Shown here in pieces: positions 13,913 to 20,707 of a stretch of DNA of 64,000 nt. Under the pieces are notes generated by a model. That model saw only the letters and a program-made list of their open reading frames with translations. It was not told the origin of the DNA and did not search any database. Where the stretch lies: positions 1-64,000 of the forward strand of contig NZ_SMKX01000008.1 in assembly GCF_004349055.1 (NCBI RefSeq), written 5' to 3'. Numbering within the stretch: the first letter of the stretch is position 1; every line of letters begins with the position of its first letter. The stretch is from Kribbella antibiotica. Its GTDB lineage: Bacteria; Actinomycetota; Actinomycetes; Propionibacteriales; Kribbellaceae. The position numbers and the translations under genes are program-made.

Positions 13913-13950
13913 CGTTTGCGACGGTGGCACCTGACTTGAGGAGCAATTTC

Positions 13951-14226
13951 ATGCAAACTCAGCCGGTTGGTGACGACCTGCAGGTTCACTTCTATTGCAA
14001 GGACCCGCAATCGAAGACGGCAGACGACTGCCCGAGCTTTTACCAGACCAGCAAGGGAAGCTGGGTCGTCCAGGGCGATGCCCTTGGCGACGAGGTCGGG
14101 GCTCAGCTACGGGGACTCAAGGAGAGCGAGACCTTCTTGGAGATCCCGCAGACGCTGGTCGATCGGTTCGTCCAGCAGTACGTCGAGGAGAGGTATGGAG
14201 TCGATCTCGGTCCAGCGCCGCGGTGA
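13951..14226 (+). CDS. Small hypothetical protein upstream of DUF6879 gene
   Basis: 91 aa (MQTQPVGDDLQVHFYCKDP...), start chosen at ATG 13951 because GGAG lies 9 nt upstream. Acidic, with a Cys in FYCKDP and another in DDCPSFY, and a C-terminal helix (PQTLVDRFVQQYVEERYG). Similar short proteins with an FYCKDP-like opening sit next to DUF6879 and XRE-DUF5753 genes in actinobacteria, but no function is known. It overlaps the next gene by 32 nt. Confidence 0.75.
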   Translation: MQTQPVGDDLQVHFYCKDPQSKTADDCPSFYQTSKGSWVVQGDALGDEVGAQLRGLKESETFLEIPQTLVDRFVQQYVEERYGVDLGPAPR

Positions 14227-14725
14227 GCTGGTCAACCAGACCTACGACTTGCTGAAACTGGAGTTGCGCGACAGCTACAAAGTCGACGAGGAGGATCTGG
14301 CAGCCTGGCGCGCCCGCGACTACGCAACGCTCGAGGCCTCGTACGGCGGCTGGCGTGATGCTGTTGCCACCAGACTGGCTCAAGGAAAGACACTGCGCCG
14401 CGTCCGGGTCGTGTCCGAGCCCTTGTCCGAATACCAGCAGATGTCGCTGCGGTTCAGTGGCTCGGCAGTAGACGCCGGCGAGGATCTGCGCTGGCTGCCC
14501 CGGCGACTGGTCTCGGCCATCGCCTTACCGGGTAATGACTGCTTCGTCCTGGACGGCCGGATGGCGATGTTCAACATCCTCGATGGTGACAACGATCGGT
14601 CGGAGATCCAGTTGGACACCGAGCCGGAAGCCGTGAAGTTCTGTCTCGAAGCCTTCGAGACAGCCTGGTCACTTGCGGTGCCGCATCACGAATACCGCCC
14701 GCAGGAAACATCCCGGCTGCCTTGA
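14195..14725 (+). CDS. DUF6879 family protein
   Basis: 176 aa from ATG 14195 (MESISVQRRGELV), AGGAG 4 nt upstream. The core WRDAVATRLAQGKTLRRVRVVSEPLSEYQQMSL and the late FNILDGDNDR segment match the DUF6879 family, a common partner of XRE-DUF5753 regulators in actinobacteria, perhaps the regulated or toxin-like half of a pair. It overlaps the gene before by 32 nt and the regulator after it by 4 nt (TTGA). Role unknown. Confidence 0.8.
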   Translation: MESISVQRRGELVNQTYDLLKLELRDSYKVDEEDLAAWRARDYATLEASYGGWRDAVATRLAQGKTLRRVRVVSEPLSEYQQMSLRFSGSAVDAGEDLRWLPRRLVSAIALPGNDCFVLDGRMAMFNILDGDNDRSEIQLDTEPEAVKFCLEAFETAWSLAVPHHEYRPQETSRLP

Positions 14726-15579
14726 GGCAGGACGCGTCCGACGCCAAGGTGGCCTTCGGACTCAAGTTGCGCGATCTGCGCCGAGACGCAGGCCTGAGCG
14801 GCCGTGAGTTCGCTCAGGCCACCGGCCTGCACAACACGAAAATCTCCCGGATCGAGCACGGTCGGCAGAATCCGTCCGAGGACGACATCCGGGCCTGGTG
14901 CATCGCCTGCGGCGTCGCGCGCCGGATCGACGAACTGGTGGCCATCCATCGCGAAGTCGAGCAGATGTGGGTCGAGCACCGTCGCGAGCTCCGCAAGGGT
15001 CAACGCCACATCCAAGCCCGGGGGGAGGCCCTGTACGCCCGAACTGGCCTGCTCCGCGTCTACGAGGCGATCGTCGTACCGGGCATCCTGCAAACAGCCG
15101 ACTACGTACGCGCCATCCTGACGATCAACGCGTCGGTGCACGGCCTGCCGCTGGGTGAGGTGGACAGTGCGGTCGACGCGCGGCTGGCCCGTCAACACCT
15201 CCTGACGATGGGGAACGGACGGAACAACTACTCCTTTGTCATCGAGGCCGGGGTGCTCGGCTACTGGTTCGGTGGCCTCGAGGTGATGCGCGAGCAGCTC
15301 GACTTCCTGGTCGCAGCCACTCGACTGCCGAACGTGGCGCTCGGGATCATTCCGCCCGGCCCGCGGACGATGTGGGGCGGTGAGTGTTTCTACATCTTCG
15401 ACGACCTGATGGTCAGGAGCGAGATGTGGACCGGCGCCTTCCGCGCCACCCAGCCCGAGGAGGTCGAGTTCTTCAGCCAGGTATTCGGCCGCCTCCGTGA
15501 CCAAGCCGTGTACGGCGACGAGGCGCGCGATCTCATCACGGCCGCGAAACAACAGCTGCAAACTGCTGAAAACTTCTAG
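14722..15579 (+). CDS. XRE family regulator with DUF5753 domain
   Basis: 285 aa, TTG start overlapping the upstream stop. Residues about 12-65 are a Cro/C1 helix-turn-helix (LRRDAGLSGREFAQATGLHNTKISRIEHG); residues about 105-280 are DUF5753 (YEAIVVPGILQTADYVRAIL, VVAATRLPNVALGIIPPG-like). This architecture is the WhiJ-like/Scr1-type regulator linked to development and antibiotic control in streptomycetes. It ends 67 nt before the RiPP precursor gene on the same strand, so it may control that cassette. Confidence 0.88.
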   Translation: MRQDASDAKVAFGLKLRDLRRDAGLSGREFAQATGLHNTKISRIEHGRQNPSEDDIRAWCIACGVARRIDELVAIHREVEQMWVEHRRELRKGQRHIQARGEALYARTGLLRVYEAIVVPGILQTADYVRAILTINASVHGLPLGEVDSAVDARLARQHLLTMGNGRNNYSFVIEAGVLGYWFGGLEVMREQLDFLVAATRLPNVALGIIPPGPRTMWGGECFYIFDDLMVRSEMWTGAFRATQPEEVEFFSQVFGRLRDQAVYGDEARDLITAAKQQLQTAENF

Positions 15580-15646
15580 CCAGCCGGTCGAGCTCCTAGC
15601 GAGGGTTGCAAGTGCCGTTCCACTCGCCACGTCTCGAGGAGCCTTC

Positions 15647-15877
15647 ATGAGCACTCCGCCGTACGCCGTACCGTTCGGAGCCCGCTTTCTTGCGTCGCCA
15701 GCAGCATCCCGCCCAGTCGCACCGCCGATGTCCTACAGCGCGAAGCTGCAACTCACTGTTTCGAGCACAGGGAACCCCTACCACGCGATCGCCGCGTCGT
15801 TGCCGGAGACGAGCACCGAGACCGACACCGGTGATGGTCAACGACCGGGCTCGGACAGCTCTACGGACAACTACTGA
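15647..15877 (+). CDS. tgmA: Graspetide precursor peptide (TgmA-like)
   Basis: 76 aa from ATG 15647, GAGGAG 6 nt upstream. The leader carries PFGARF at residues 9-14, the place and shape of the PFGxR motif of ATP-grasp-targeted leaders, then RPVAP (22-26) and YSAKLQLTV (30-38). The C-terminal core (about 54-76) has nine Thr/Ser that could donate hydroxyls (T55, S56, T57, T59, T61, S69, S71, S72, T73) and six Asp/Glu acceptors (E54, E58, D60, D63, D70, D74). Asp63-Gly64 is a likely aspartimide site. There is no Lys in the core, so ester rather than amide links are expected. Stops 3 nt before the ligase gene. Call rests on leader motif and neighbours. Confidence 0.85.
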   Translation: MSTPPYAVPFGARFLASPAASRPVAPPMSYSAKLQLTVSSTGNPYHAIAASLPETSTETDTGDGQRPGSDSSTDNY

Positions 15878-15880
15878 CCC

Positions 15881-16828
15881 ATGAGCACGATCCTGGTCCT
15901 CACGAGCCGCGATGACCTTACCGCCGACGCGGTGATCGACGAGCTTGCCGTCCGCGGCGCAGATGTCGTTCGCTACGACACTGCGGACTTTCCGTTGTCT
16001 TCCCAGCTCGCAGCCTCCCTTGGCCGACGCGGATGGGAGGGAACCCTGACGGGCGACCGCACGATCGACCTGGACTCGATCAGATCCGTCTGGTGGCGGC
16101 GGCCCGCCGAGTTTGCACTGCCCGACGACTGGCCCGACGAGGCACGAGCGTTCGCAGCTTCCGAAGCGAGAGTCGGACTTCTCGGCGTACTGGGTTCGTT
16201 GCCTGCACGCTGGATCAATCATCCGGCCAAGGACTCGGCGGCGAGCTACAAGCCAGTTCAGCTAGCGGCAGCAGCCAGTGCCGGCCTGGAGGTACCGCGC
16301 ACGATCATCACGTCCGATCTGGATCACGCCCGGCAGTTCATCGGAACCGAGCAGGTCATTTACAAAGGCCTGAGCGGCGGTGTCCTGACGCCTGAGCGGC
16401 GGCACCGCTACCTACCGACGACTCCACTCACGGCAGCAGACCTCGACGCCGGTCTGGCCGGGACCGCCCACCTGTTTCAGGAGCGGGTGCCCAAAGCCTT
16501 CGAGTGCCGGCTCACTGTCATCGGGCAGCGGATGTTCCCCGTTGCGATCCACGCCGGGTCTGACGCAGCGAGACTGGACTGGCGGACCGACTACGCGTCG
16601 CTGACCTACCAGCGGATCGAACTACCGGCCGAGGTCGAGAAAGGTGTCCGGCTGCTGATGGATGATCTGGAGCTCTTCTTCGGTGCTTTGGACTTCGCCG
16701 TGACTCCGGATGGCCGCTGGGTGTTCTTCGAGGTGAATCCAAACGGCCAATGGCATTGGCTGGCGGCAAAGGCCGGCGTACCGATGGTGGATGCGATGGC
16801 CGATGCCCTGCAGAGACGGGACTATTGA
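15881..16828 (+). CDS. tgmB: ATP-grasp RiPP maturase (TgmB-type ligase)
   Basis: 315 aa. Graspetide ligases use ATP to join Thr/Ser hydroxyls (or Lys) to Asp/Glu side chains of the precursor, forming macrolactones. Family marks seen: N-terminal ILVLTSRDDLTADAVIDEL, SVWWRRP in the pre-grasp domain, the HPAKDSAASYKPVQLAAAASAG segment split across the precursor-binding region, LFQERVPKAFECRLTVIG, and the ATP/Mg motif FFEVNPNGQWHWL at the C-terminus. Normal length for TgmB. Lies between precursor and methyltransferase with gaps of 3 nt each, a typical three-gene cassette. All key acidic residues appear intact. Confidence 0.93.
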   Translation: MSTILVLTSRDDLTADAVIDELAVRGADVVRYDTADFPLSSQLAASLGRRGWEGTLTGDRTIDLDSIRSVWWRRPAEFALPDDWPDEARAFAASEARVGLLGVLGSLPARWINHPAKDSAASYKPVQLAAAASAGLEVPRTIITSDLDHARQFIGTEQVIYKGLSGGVLTPERRHRYLPTTPLTAADLDAGLAGTAHLFQERVPKAFECRLTVIGQRMFPVAIHAGSDAARLDWRTDYASLTYQRIELPAEVEKGVRLLMDDLELFFGALDFAVTPDGRWVFFEVNPNGQWHWLAAKAGVPMVDAMADALQRRDY

Positions 16829-16831
16829 TCG

Positions 16832-17959
16832 ATGCATGACTGGACCGCAGCGGCGCGGCAGCTCGCCGCACAGGTGACCGGTGAGGCGCCCGAGTGGTAC
16901 GACGCAGTAGCGGCGACGCCGCGGCATCGGCTGGTGCCGCGATGGTGGGAACCGGTCGCCGGAAGCTACCCGCCGTACTGGCAGCTCATCACCACAAGCG
17001 CTGACGGCCCCTACTCCAACAAAACGCTCGTGACGCGGGTCGGTCGCCAGCATGCAGACCACGCGACCGAGGCAGACCACGGGACGGGCGCTCCCACCTC
17101 GTCCTCCACACTGCCCGGTCTGATCGTCGACATGTTGCACCTTCTCGATCCGCAGCCCGGTCAGCAGGTGCTGGACGTCGGCACCGGCTCGGGCTATTCG
17201 GCTGCCCTGCTCGGTCACCGGCTCGGGGACGAGCTCGTGACCAGCATCGACCGGGAGGACTACCTGGTCCGAATCGCCAAGGAGCGGCTGGCCGGATTTG
17301 GGCGGGTGCCGACCATCGAGGTCGCCGATGCGACGACGACGCTACCAAGCGGGCAGTACGACAGGCTGATGGCGACTGTGTCGGTCAGGCCAATCCCTCC
17401 GGCCTGGCTCGAAGCCCTTCGCCCAGGTGGTCGGATCGTCACGACCATCGCCCAGACCTCTCTCCTCATCAGCGCCGATCTGGACGACGACGGAACGGCG
17501 TACGGACGCGTGCTTCCCGGCCCGGCCAGCTTCATGCGGGCCCGGCAGGGTGCCGATTACCCGCCGCGCTTCGACGACGTGTACGCCGCGGCTCGTGACG
17601 CCTCCGGAGAAGAGATACGCCGCGTCGAGGGCAACGACGTACCGGACCTGTGGACCGACTGGGAGCTGCGCTGCCTGTACGAACTCGAAAGTCCCGACAT
17701 CGAGCACCGCTCCGCCACACTCGACGACGGCAGCCGCATCATGTGGTTGCTCAGCCCCGACGGATCCTGGGCCCGCGCCGAGCAGGCCAGCGGGGTCGTC
17801 CACGAAAGCGGCCCTCGTCGCCTGTGGGGCGAGCTCGATCGAACTCGCTCCCGCTGGTACGACGCGGGCCGCTTCCCTCTGCACCGGATGTCCGCCGAGT
17901 TCGGCCCCGAGCGCAGCGTTCTTCTCAGCCCGGACAAGGACTGGCAGTTTGAACTCTGA
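16832..17959 (+). CDS. tgmC: PIMT-like methyltransferase of graspetide cassette (TgmC-type)
   Basis: 375 aa. The central domain is a protein-L-isoaspartate O-methyltransferase relative: SAM motif I VLDVGTGSGYSAALL near residue 112, then YDRLMATVSVRPIPPAWLEALRPGGRIV. The long C-terminal extension (about residues 230-375) is absent from housekeeping PIMTs and typical of the graspetide-associated group, which methylates a chosen Asp so that it closes to an aspartimide, as shown for fuscimiditide and amycolimiditide. Three nt after the ligase. The expected target is Asp63 of the precursor; that is inference. Confidence 0.9.
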   Translation: MHDWTAAARQLAAQVTGEAPEWYDAVAATPRHRLVPRWWEPVAGSYPPYWQLITTSADGPYSNKTLVTRVGRQHADHATEADHGTGAPTSSSTLPGLIVDMLHLLDPQPGQQVLDVGTGSGYSAALLGHRLGDELVTSIDREDYLVRIAKERLAGFGRVPTIEVADATTTLPSGQYDRLMATVSVRPIPPAWLEALRPGGRIVTTIAQTSLLISADLDDDGTAYGRVLPGPASFMRARQGADYPPRFDDVYAAARDASGEEIRRVEGNDVPDLWTDWELRCLYELESPDIEHRSATLDDGSRIMWLLSPDGSWARAEQASGVVHESGPRRLWGELDRTRSRWYDAGRFPLHRMSAEFGPERSVLLSPDKDWQFEL

Positions 17960-17984: not shown

Positions 17985-19760
17985 TTACAGGCCGAGCTGT
18001 CCCAACCGCACGGAGATCCGGGGATCCGTGGAGACCACCGGGGCCTCCTTCAGCACCCAAGGGTCGCCGCCGAAGTAGGTCTGGAAGATCTTCTCCGCCG
18101 TCCGCGTCGCCAGTGCCTGGGACGTGAGCGTCGGGTTCGGGCCGCCAAGGCCGTTCGGCAGAGCTGAGTTGTCGGCGATGAAGAGGCGCTTGACGGCGCG
18201 GGACTCGCCGCGGGCATCGAGGACCGAGTTGTTCTCGGACTCCCCCATCCGCATCGACGACTGGACGTGCAGGATGAGCGGCGCCCAGTCGATCCGGTAG
18301 ACCTTCTTGGCACCGGCTCCACGCAGCAGCTCGGCTGCCTTGCGCGCCATGAACTCGCGGTTCTTGAGCGTCCGCTTGGTGCGTTGGCGCTGTTTGAAGG
18401 TGACCTTCGGGATCGGGCCGTTCTCGTCGGCCGGCAGCGCCGACAGGGTGACGCGGTTCTGCGCCTCGACGTCGTCGTCGGTGATCACCAGCACGGTCAG
18501 CAGTTTGTCGATGCCGCCGCTGAGCAGCTCCTTCAGCTCCGGGCCGGCGACTCGTCCCGCCGGTCCGTCCCACGGCCCGGTCGCGCCGCGGCCGTTCTTG
18601 TACTGCCCACGGATTCCGCTGTCCGACAGCGAGGCCGAGAAGGCGCTCAGCGCCGGCGGCAGGCCGACGTTCTCCAGACCCCCGTACGGCGGGTAGTCCA
18701 GCCGCGCGCTGGATCCGACGCCCTTCGGGTTGCCGGTGTAGTCGTCGAACGACCCGATCATCCAGTCGAAGAAGTGATCGGTGTACCCGCGCCCAACCCA
18801 GTCGTTCGGATTGGGCAGACCGCTGTTGAACCACAACCGTGGGTTCTCGGTGCAGCCACCGGCCATCACGACGACCTTCGCGTCCTCGCGGTGCTCGTCA
18901 CCGGTGACGTTGTCGCGCCACGTCACGCCGGTCGCGGTCAGGACGCCGTTCCGCTTCTCGGAGTGCACCTGCGTCACGTAGGCATCCGCGATCAGCTCAG
19001 CTGGGCGGCCACCAGTCGCCCAGACCTCAGCGGTCAACGCCATCGGCACATAGCTGTTATCGGTCGAGCGCTTGGCGAATTGGTTGCGCGGGGCCCCCTT
19101 CGGTCGCATGCAGCCCTGGAAGCAGTAGCCGCAGAATGTGCAGCCCTTGGCCTGCGGGAAGTTCAGCAGGTTCTTGTCCGATGTCTTGCCGGCCGTCCCC
19201 TGCGGTTGCAGGATCGCGTTCTCCTGCGGCCGGTACGACGCCCGCAACGTTGTCTTGGTGGTCTGGACGGGCAACCCCATCGTCTCAGCGCCCTTGAAGA
19301 ACAGCTGTTCCTTGTGGCCCATCGCCGCCGTCTGGACCGGCATCAGCGCCTCGACCCATTCGAAGTACGGAACCATCTCCTTGTACGTGAACGGGAACCG
19401 ATGGTTCACGTCGTACTCGTTGCGGTCGGCACCGTCGTACCCCTTGAAGACCCCGGGATACGCACGCGGGTAGTTGCCGTAGAAGTGCTGCGTCGTCCCG
19501 CCGACACCGGACAGCTGCCAGACGAACGAGTTCTGCGGCCACTCGCGGTACCAGGCCGGCTTCGACCGATCGGTCGGGCCGAGCCGGAAATACCCACTCA
19601 GCGGATTGTTCGCGTCGTTCTCAAAAGTCGTCCACTCGTCCCGCGGCTTCGCATGCCGCGGCCCAGCCTCCAGGACCAGTACGTCGAGCCCTTTCGCCGC
19701 AAGCTCCTTGGCGACGACGGGGCCACCACCGCCGGCTCCGATCACAATGACATCGCGCAT
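17985..19760 (-). CDS. GMC family FAD-dependent oxidoreductase
   Basis: 591 aa from ATG 19760 (MRDVIVIGAGGGG), chosen because the Rossmann motif starts there and the codon overlaps the preceding stop by 1 nt. FAD-binding VIGAGGGGPVVAKELAAKGLDVLVLEAG at the N-terminus, a GMC C-terminal active-site region with HVQSSMRMG and NPTLTSQALATRTAE. A cysteine cluster CTFCGYCFQGC (C-x2-C-x2-C-x3-C) lies near residue 207. It has no signal peptide, but its partner gene encodes a Tat protein, so it may be carried out of the cell with it. Likely oxidises an alcohol or sugar; substrate unknown. Confidence 0.9.
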   Translation of the reverse strand: MRDVIVIGAGGGGPVVAKELAAKGLDVLVLEAGPRHAKPRDEWTTFENDANNPLSGYFRLGPTDRSKPAWYREWPQNSFVWQLSGVGGTTQHFYGNYPRAYPGVFKGYDGADRNEYDVNHRFPFTYKEMVPYFEWVEALMPVQTAAMGHKEQLFFKGAETMGLPVQTTKTTLRASYRPQENAILQPQGTAGKTSDKNLLNFPQAKGCTFCGYCFQGCMRPKGAPRNQFAKRSTDNSYVPMALTAEVWATGGRPAELIADAYVTQVHSEKRNGVLTATGVTWRDNVTGDEHREDAKVVVMAGGCTENPRLWFNSGLPNPNDWVGRGYTDHFFDWMIGSFDDYTGNPKGVGSSARLDYPPYGGLENVGLPPALSAFSASLSDSGIRGQYKNGRGATGPWDGPAGRVAGPELKELLSGGIDKLLTVLVITDDDVEAQNRVTLSALPADENGPIPKVTFKQRQRTKRTLKNREFMARKAAELLRGAGAKKVYRIDWAPLILHVQSSMRMGESENNSVLDARGESRAVKRLFIADNSALPNGLGGPNPTLTSQALATRTAEKIFQTYFGGDPWVLKEAPVVSTDPRISVRLGQLGL

Positions 19761-20653
19761 CAGTCGTGCACCTCCGTACGCCCTTGGTAGTAGCCGATGA
19801 AGTCGTCCCAGCCCTCGACCGGACCGTCCGGCTGGTAGCCCGAGAGCTGCCACGAGACCGGCCGCCCCTTGAGCTTCCGCGTCTTCGGATCGAAGACGGC
19901 GTACTCGCTGTAGGCGCCGAAGGTGCCGAACTCGATCAGCGCACCGCCGACGAACTTGAGCAGGCCGGAGACCGACTCCTTCAGCGGCTCAGGGAACTGC
20001 ACGTCCAGCAACGCGACCAGATCCGCGTCGGTCTTCTCGATCAGCTCGAAAGCAGACGCCTTCTCGGCATACGTCAGTCGCGCGAACGGCGACAGGTGCG
20101 GACCGTTCACCGCGAGCGGGTTCACCTGGGTCGCCATCAGGTTGAGCAGCATCGCGATCGGCAGCGACAGCGGCAGCGCCTCGTCACTCTGCAGGAGCGC
20201 CGCGAGCGCCTTGTCGAGCTGCCGCAGCTGCGGGGGCAGCAACTCCAGCCCGGGCAGGACGATCCCGGTGTCGGCCAGGCCGGTCACCATCGCCGCACCG
20301 ATCGGCTGCGCGAGCGCGTCCGGGAACGGGACGAAGTTGTCCAGCGACTCGATGATGAAGTTGGTCGCGCCGGACTCCATCGCGCCGGGAGTCTTGCTGA
20401 CCGTGCCCTGAGTGCGCGAATACGCATCCGGGCCGGGCTGGCAGAAGACCGTCAACCCGTTCATGGTGTCGCGGGCGAGCGCCGCGAGGACAGGGCGGAG
20501 AAGATCCACCGTGGGCGGAAGAAGGGGATTCGTGGCGGCGTCAGCGGGGTTCAGCAGGCTGCGCGTGAGCAGCCCGCCTCCGCCCAGCGCCGCGCCCAGA
20601 ATCCCGATCCGGGCGAGAAACGCCCTTCGGGCAAGAGGAACTGCTGTAGGCAT
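19760..20653 (-). CDS. Tat-exported small subunit of GMC dehydrogenase (gluconate 2-dehydrogenase subunit 3-like)
   Basis: 297 aa from ATG 20653, with AAGGA 6 nt upstream; an upstream in-frame start would add nine residues. Twin-arginine signal ARRAFLARIGILGAALGGGGLL, cleaved near AAT. The remainder (LDNFVPFPDALAQPIGAAMVTGL, RLTYAEKASAFELIEKTD, GGALIEFGTFGAYSEYAVFDP) resembles the helical partner subunit of membrane GMC dehydrogenases. Its TGA overlaps the GMC ATG by one base, a strong sign of a stoichiometric complex. No cytochrome subunit follows in this window. Confidence 0.78.
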   Translation of the reverse strand: MPTAVPLARRAFLARIGILGAALGGGGLLTRSLLNPADAATNPLLPPTVDLLRPVLAALARDTMNGLTVFCQPGPDAYSRTQGTVSKTPGAMESGATNFIIESLDNFVPFPDALAQPIGAAMVTGLADTGIVLPGLELLPPQLRQLDKALAALLQSDEALPLSLPIAMLLNLMATQVNPLAVNGPHLSPFARLTYAEKASAFELIEKTDADLVALLDVQFPEPLKESVSGLLKFVGGALIEFGTFGAYSEYAVFDPKTRKLKGRPVSWQLSGYQPDGPVEGWDDFIGYYQGRTEVHD

Positions 20654-20707
20654 ACGGGTCCTTCGGCAGATGGGGGCCACGCCGGAGTCCCGCAGGAGGT
20701 GGAACCA

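Follow-up and report, generated by a model that had tools for sequence, protein, structure and literature searches.

Three adjacent genes in the window, the 64,000-nucleotide stretch of Kribbella antibiotica DNA analysed here (contig NZ_SMKX01000008.1, positions 1 to 64,000), very probably form a fuscimiditide-type graspetide cassette. They encode a short precursor peptide, an ATP-grasp ligase and a methyltransferase of the protein isoaspartate methyltransferase (PIMT) type. Judging from the sequence and by analogy with characterised relatives, two esters would fold the precursor core into a hairpin and the methyltransferase would convert D63 to an aspartimide. The cassette looks like a member of the group 13 graspetides (graspimiditides), and like a relative of fuscimiditide rather than the source of a new kind of molecule. 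Its predicted product is a bicyclic Thr-Asp ester hairpin with aspartimide or isoaspartate (isoAsp) at D63.

An earlier note, made from the DNA letters alone, had counted nine Thr/Ser, six Asp/Glu and no Lys; these counts are exact for P53-Y76 (T55, S56, T57, T59, T61, S69, S71, S72 and T73; E54, E58, D60, D63, D70 and D74), and the Asp63-Gly64 pair that it had singled out is present. The core is arranged as T55-STE-T59, a loop DTGDGQRPGS and D70-SST-D74-NY. This 4-10-4 spacing was found in 143 of 200,000 shuffled window cores. Graspimiditides are described as having a Thr-Asp stem and a 10-12 residue loop bearing the methylated Asp (PMC12291112 and PMC13001092, in part); on sequence geometry, the window core has such a stem and a loop of this kind holding an Asp. 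In fuscimiditide, from Thermobifida fusca, the esters are T3-D22 and T7-D18 and the loop is Y8-S17 (PMC12291112, in part). The earlier note had not recognised the core from any described compound. We rejected a new core without a described relative, because both the spacing and the loop piece DGQ(K/R)PG match fuscimiditide.

The same arrangement is widely conserved. A search of 5.8 billion proteins with the precursor alone gave 28 proteins and a search with an alignment of 27 precursors gave 125, of which the best 120 were examined; the 28 and a further 94 from the alignment search made up 122 related proteins, including the window's own precursor and some fragments. The fuscimiditide-type geometry, with the added demand for an Asp anywhere in the loop, was kept in 98 of the 122. 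Loop position 4 is Asp in all 98, followed by Gly (88), Ser (9) or Asn (1), each of which is listed among the known or possible n+1 residues of graspimiditides (PMC13001092, in part). Comparative support for D63 as the putative methylated residue is strong. All 98 also have Thr or Ser midway along the first strand (the T57 position) and exactly two residues beyond the last Asp, the final one being Tyr (84) or Trp (14). Position 72, a Ser in the window, is acidic in six. Among 21 distinct close cores (from 53 sequences with 23 distinct ends, two non-full cores being dropped), T57, E54 and E58 are invariant and position 72 is Asp in four. Arg66 was rejected as a conserved protease-inhibitor residue, as it is found in only 14 of the 21, with A, S, T, K or G in the others. 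Compared with five relatives, the core had fewer nonsynonymous than synonymous substitutions per site (dN 0.06-0.34, dS 0.60-1.74; rough NG86 estimates over 24 codons); over the 24 codons that precede it, two of the five comparisons gave a saturated dS.

The genes themselves are all open and on the same strand, and the coordinates confirm the 3-nt spacing between both pairs reported in the earlier note. They were scored against the NCBIfam profiles TIGR04186, TIGR04187 and TIGR04188 (curated cut-offs 25, 350 and 380 bits). The precursor passed TIGR04186 and has the PFGARF motif at residues 9-14, as claimed. P9, G11, R13 and L15 are invariant across the 27 aligned precursors, as are L34, Q35, V38, G42, N43 and P44 in a second leader block, YSAKLQLTVSSTGNPYHA. 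The microviridin leader motif is given as PFFARFL (PMC8939145, in part). The precursor thus has what is expected of a graspetide, namely adjacency to the ligase, a conserved leader motif and a core with Thr/Ser and Asp/Glu; its homologues are mostly 73-76 amino acids long among the 28 listed. The ligase, described earlier as TgmB-type, passed TIGR04187 and belongs to the peptide-maturase branch, with graspetide macrocyclases throughout the nine best rows of a structural comparison. The methyltransferase, called TgmC-type in the earlier note, matches PCMT (Pfam) and has the PIMT fold, so that the cassette contains the PIMT gene expected of group 13. TIGR04188 was its best match (E 6e-82). With two profiles passed and this third match, the gene set is not a chance find, and gene content, family matches and core spacing together support the graspetide interpretation.

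A scan of contigs gave 33 related loci, 24 with the window core type (L016-L039) and nine with other cores (L040-L048). The 24 come from Kribbella, Streptomyces, Streptantibioticus and Streptacidiphilus, and in every one the precursor, ligase and methyltransferase genes occur together in the same order. The precursor and methyltransferase genes are broken in two of them (L024 and L025), both from Streptacidiphilus sp. 4-A2. In these two cassettes, on 8.8-Mb and 86-kb contigs, leader and core do not share a reading frame, and the methyltransferase is short.

By analogy with characterised enzymes, the ligase would bind the PFGARF leader and Asp side chains would be phosphorylated by ATP. The ligase would then likely form the side-chain esters Thr59-Asp70 and Thr55-Asp74, so that a ten-residue loop would close the hairpin. 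The calculated monoisotopic mass of the full-length precursor is 7843.73 Da without modification, 7807.71 Da with two esters and 7789.70 Da with three; for the tryptic fragment L34-Y76, in which R66-P67 should withstand cleavage, it is 4440.01 Da, or 4403.99 Da with two esters. Two esters plus an aspartimide would weigh as much as three esters. As in the relatives, the methyltransferase would act on the cyclised peptide only, methylating Asp63 and so allowing closure to the aspartimide. This ring could be lasting or could open, chiefly to isoaspartate, in line with reports on relatives. Roles for the product as a covalent target trap or a protease inhibitor are guesses.

Several observations weigh against this reading. 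The esters and the aspartimide are predictions drawn from the sequence and from relatives. Besides the two predicted pairs, the core contains other potential donors and acceptors (T57, T61, T73, E54, E58 and D60), and a bare two-ester model leaves the invariant T57, E54 and E58 unexplained. Of the 122 related proteins, 24 do not fit the geometry, some being fragments or having unrelated ends and others having differently spaced strands or loops. The fuscimiditide likeness is one of core and gene content. A six-frame TIGR04186 search of the K. antibiotica genome (9.28 Mb, 348 contigs) found a single precursor, at C27, and missed that of the window; one of three close relatives tested scored 24.0, just under the cut-off, and the window precursor therefore lies near the edge of the model. 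The methyltransferase scored 275.9 bits against TIGR04188, below the cut-off, and we therefore name this family as the best match only. Finally, the motif WXXXGXP is absent near the methyltransferase C-terminus, where WYDAGRFP is found instead.

The last two points bear on the whole group of related enzymes. The TIGR04188 cut-off was also failed by five of five clade members and two of four paralogues tested; these paralogues, at C329 and C275, led us to reject the failure as a definition of the clade. WXXXGXP has been reported for most PIMTs associated with ribosomally synthesized and post-translationally modified peptides (RiPPs), without being defining. It was found in strict form in none of the best 120 of 1329 methyltransferase homologues, some of them fragments, and in all five ligase-linked paralogues of the K. 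antibiotica genome, where another PIMT gene, next to one of the five, has no such motif. At the nine loci with other cores, one enzyme has it at the corresponding place and five have Phe for Trp. Loss of the motif as a mark of the window's clade alone is thus weakened, since eight of these nine enzymes also lack it there.

The methyltransferase may be active and yet leave isoaspartate at residue 63, with no lasting aspartimide, a tentative alternative to which we give appreciable weight. SsfA(BM) came as a mixture of isoAsp and Asp forms (PMC10787088, in part) and the fuscimiditide aspartimide opens to 95% isoAsp (PMC13001092, in part). However, three of the four characterised graspimiditides in the latter account were purified as the aspartimide, and the common DGQ(K/R)PG loop points toward fuscimiditide-like behaviour.

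A tricyclic product, in which the invariant T57 makes a third ester, is unlikely, although it would draw on the conservation of T57 and of the two-residue tail. In the few relatives with Asp at position 72 this would be an amycolimiditide-like T57-D72 pair, a third Thr-Asp pair in register. In the window, with Ser72, two of the esters would be T59-D70 and T57-D74, and T55 would be linked to the C-terminal carboxylate of Tyr76, an ester of the sort postulated for SsfA. The amycolimiditide strands TNTVT and DSDTD, with four nested esters, offer a precedent for additional links, and in SsfA the C-terminal carboxylate seems to take part in a link (PMC10787088, in part). Against this, two esters match the 4/4 spacing as exactly as they do in fuscimiditide, T57 could instead be needed for recognition by an enzyme, and the C-terminal ester has been postulated in a single case. 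The constancy of the Tyr/Trp tail points to some importance of the C-terminus, which may be a third acceptor or may help in enzyme binding. That the clade as a whole makes the T59-D70, T57-D74, T55-Tyr76 tricycle, with a methyltransferase of reshaped C-terminal motif adapted to this fold, is a proposal to which we give little credence. If true, it would account for both the invariant third Thr and the two-residue aromatic tail, and would make a side-chain-to-C-terminus ester the rule across the Kribbella and Streptomyces family. Esters of reverse polarity, from T73 to E54 or E58, were set aside because ThfB is reported to refuse a reversed donor/acceptor order (PMC12291112, in part).

The K. 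antibiotica genome holds further graspetide genes. Two more cassettes have complete ligases, at C27 and C329, and their precursor sequences differ from that of the window. The C27 precursor (L049:5717-6145) passes TIGR04186 with 45.0 bits; the C329 precursor (L050:3599-3880) fails at 19.0 bits and has KPFGIKF and, in its tail, SDG. The ligases at C99, C275 and C151 are truncated at the N-terminus by about 100, 100 and 230 residues; the stretches examined held none of the missing pieces upstream, and a long PIMT reading frame still follows each ligase. Identity between the C99 ligase and the complete one at C27 is 85%. The idea that this genome has six full paralogous systems was rejected, since three of the five other ligases lack the N-terminal part. 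These truncations and the broken Streptacidiphilus copies might suggest that the window cassette too is a decaying, silent leftover, but its genes are all open and preceded by a ribosome-binding site, and dN is below dS in the core, which makes this very improbable. It is scarcely credible that the methyltransferase does no more than ordinary isoaspartate repair, adjacent by chance to a peptide that stays unmodified: its first 240 residues do match repair PIMTs, and its TIGR04188 score and lack of a strict WXXXGXP would fit, but all 24 loci, from four genera, have it next to precursor and ligase, its structural model carries an extra C-terminal domain, and every one of the 98 relatives with the geometry has a loop Asp followed by Gly, Ser or Asn.

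Table 1. Features of the cassette and its upstream flank (window positions), and stretches with truncated ligases elsewhere in the genome
Feature	Position	Strand	Basis or remark
Graspetide precursor, 76 amino acids	15647..15877	+	ATG at 15647; TIGR04186 30.5 bits (cut-off 25)
ATP-grasp graspetide ligase, 315 amino acids	15881..16828	+	TIGR04187 395.1 bits (cut-off 350)
PIMT-type methyltransferase with extra C-terminal domain, 375 amino acids	16832..17959	+	predicted peptide aspartyl O-methyltransferase
Ribosome-binding-site-like GAGGAG	15636..15641	+	sequence; 5 nt ahead of the precursor ATG
Leader motif PFGARF (residues 9-14), likely ligase-binding helix	15671..15688	+	role suggested by microviridin PFFARFL
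Second conserved leader block (residues 30-47)	15734..15787	+	conservation in 27 aligned precursors
Predicted core P53-Y76; esters T59-D70 (inner) and T55-D74 (outer), 10-residue loop	15803..15874	+	fuscimiditide spacing; putative linkage
D63-G64 codons, predicted aspartimide site, loop position 4	15833..15838	+	conservation; putative modification
HTH_31 and DUF5753 regulator, possible cassette regulator	14722..15579	+	Pfam; tentative association
Truncated-ligase stretch L051	G000:C99:22500-33500		
Truncated-ligase stretch L052	G000:C275:50500-62000		
Truncated-ligase stretch L053	G000:C151:3500-10369		

Just upstream of the cassette, 13924-15579 of the window encodes a 100-amino-acid protein, an additional frame, presumably DUF6879-like, and the HTH-DUF5753 regulator. 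DUF397/DUF5753 pairs have been reported alongside group 13 graspetides (PMC13097080, in part). The regulator gave weak matches (22-32%), on the opposite strand, in eight of the 33 related loci, and the association is therefore tentative. Directly downstream, on the minus strand, 17985-20680 encodes a GMC oxidoreductase together with a protein whose match to a Tat signal is weak and under the cut-off (13.8 against 16.7 bits). The window's 100-amino-acid, DUF4303, GMC and Tat proteins had matches in none of the 33 loci, a comparison that gives little support to the upstream regulator and the downstream oxidoreductase as cassette parts. Shared genes were also sought among open reading frames of at least 120 amino acids in about 6 kb around the cassette, in the window and eight of the 24 loci, setting aside the reverse-strand shadow frames of the cassette. 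This check found no protease or transporter shared with the cassette, and no non-cassette gene common to more than seven of the 24 loci; leader removal and export would therefore presumably be carried out by enzymes encoded elsewhere.

Among 38 Kribbella genomes, including that of K. antibiotica, 22 had a relative of the ligase at E 1e-20 or better, and ten had one at at least 76% identity. Two of the hits in this genus, G012:C1:1021200-1022141 and G021:C14:114043-114984, have the coordinates of the loci known from Kribbella kalugense and K. sindirgiensis. A survey of the class gave a precursor match in seven of 394 genomes, again counting K. antibiotica; the six others comprised one with this core type, three with a related shorter core and two (L059 and L061) that were not precursor-like. 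The distant precursors (L057:1459-1701, L058:1456-1698 and L060) have the same leader and a shorter core such as ETSTNNDGNQSGEDTNTDPW, and shorter-core precursors also occur among Jiangella and Phytoactinopolyspora proteins. The family is already annotated, many precursor homologues having source names such as putative ATP-grasp-modified or ATP-grasp target RiPP. A limited literature search (graspetide or fuscimiditide with Kribbella) found no report of its characterisation, which does not establish absence from print.

The window precursor stands for a conserved family that is fuscimiditide-like and occurs in Kribbella and Streptomyces, with a clear prediction of ester and aspartimide sites. 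The family provides a natural test set, in which the residue after the loop Asp varies among Gly, Ser and Asn, position 72 is Asp or else Ser or Gly, and the methyltransferases include enzymes without WXXXGXP, a motif thought to be important for substrate binding. The natural role of aspartimidylated RiPPs is described as an open question (PMC13001092, in part); the family adds natural variants and does not solve it.

Among known systems, the PIMT of Thermotoga maritima (1dl5) shares the PIMT fold and a C-terminal domain with the window methyltransferase, and we know of no RiPP precursor for it. The window ligase shares the fold of the microviridin ligases MdnB and MdnC (5ig8 and 5ig9), which it matches by sequence with E 8.8e-40 and 1.1e-42, and PFGARF resembles the microviridin leader motif. 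To our knowledge, the microviridin ligases have no PIMT partner. The SsfA system of Streptomyces sp. F-3 has precursor, ATP-grasp and PIMT homologue genes as in the window; it is reported to show Asp-Gly conversion, five esters, one of them suggested to involve the C-terminus, and an isoAsp/Asp end product (PMC10787088, in part). Amycolimiditide (8dym), which has four nested esters (PMC13001092 and PMC12291112, in part), shares the TxTxT donor strand (alignment E 4.7, the chain showing TNTVT and DSDTD) and, if its inner ester spans a ten-residue loop, an Asp-Gly at loop position 4. It differs in its DxDxD acceptor strand, the middle acceptor being Ser in the window, and in a second Asp-Gly at loop position 1. 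Fuscimiditide (ThfA/ThfB/ThfM; chain 7li2/7lif, residues 2-22: GTMRVTYPDGQKPGQSDVEKD) has its loop Asp at position 3 rather than 4, Arg (in TMRVT) in place of the mid-stem Thr, and no counterpart of the two extra residues (NY) that follow the last Asp in the window. It nevertheless shares with the window the T-3-T, ten-residue loop and D-3-D arrangement, a loop with DGQKPG where the window has DGQRPG, and the same set of precursor, ATP-grasp and PIMT genes.
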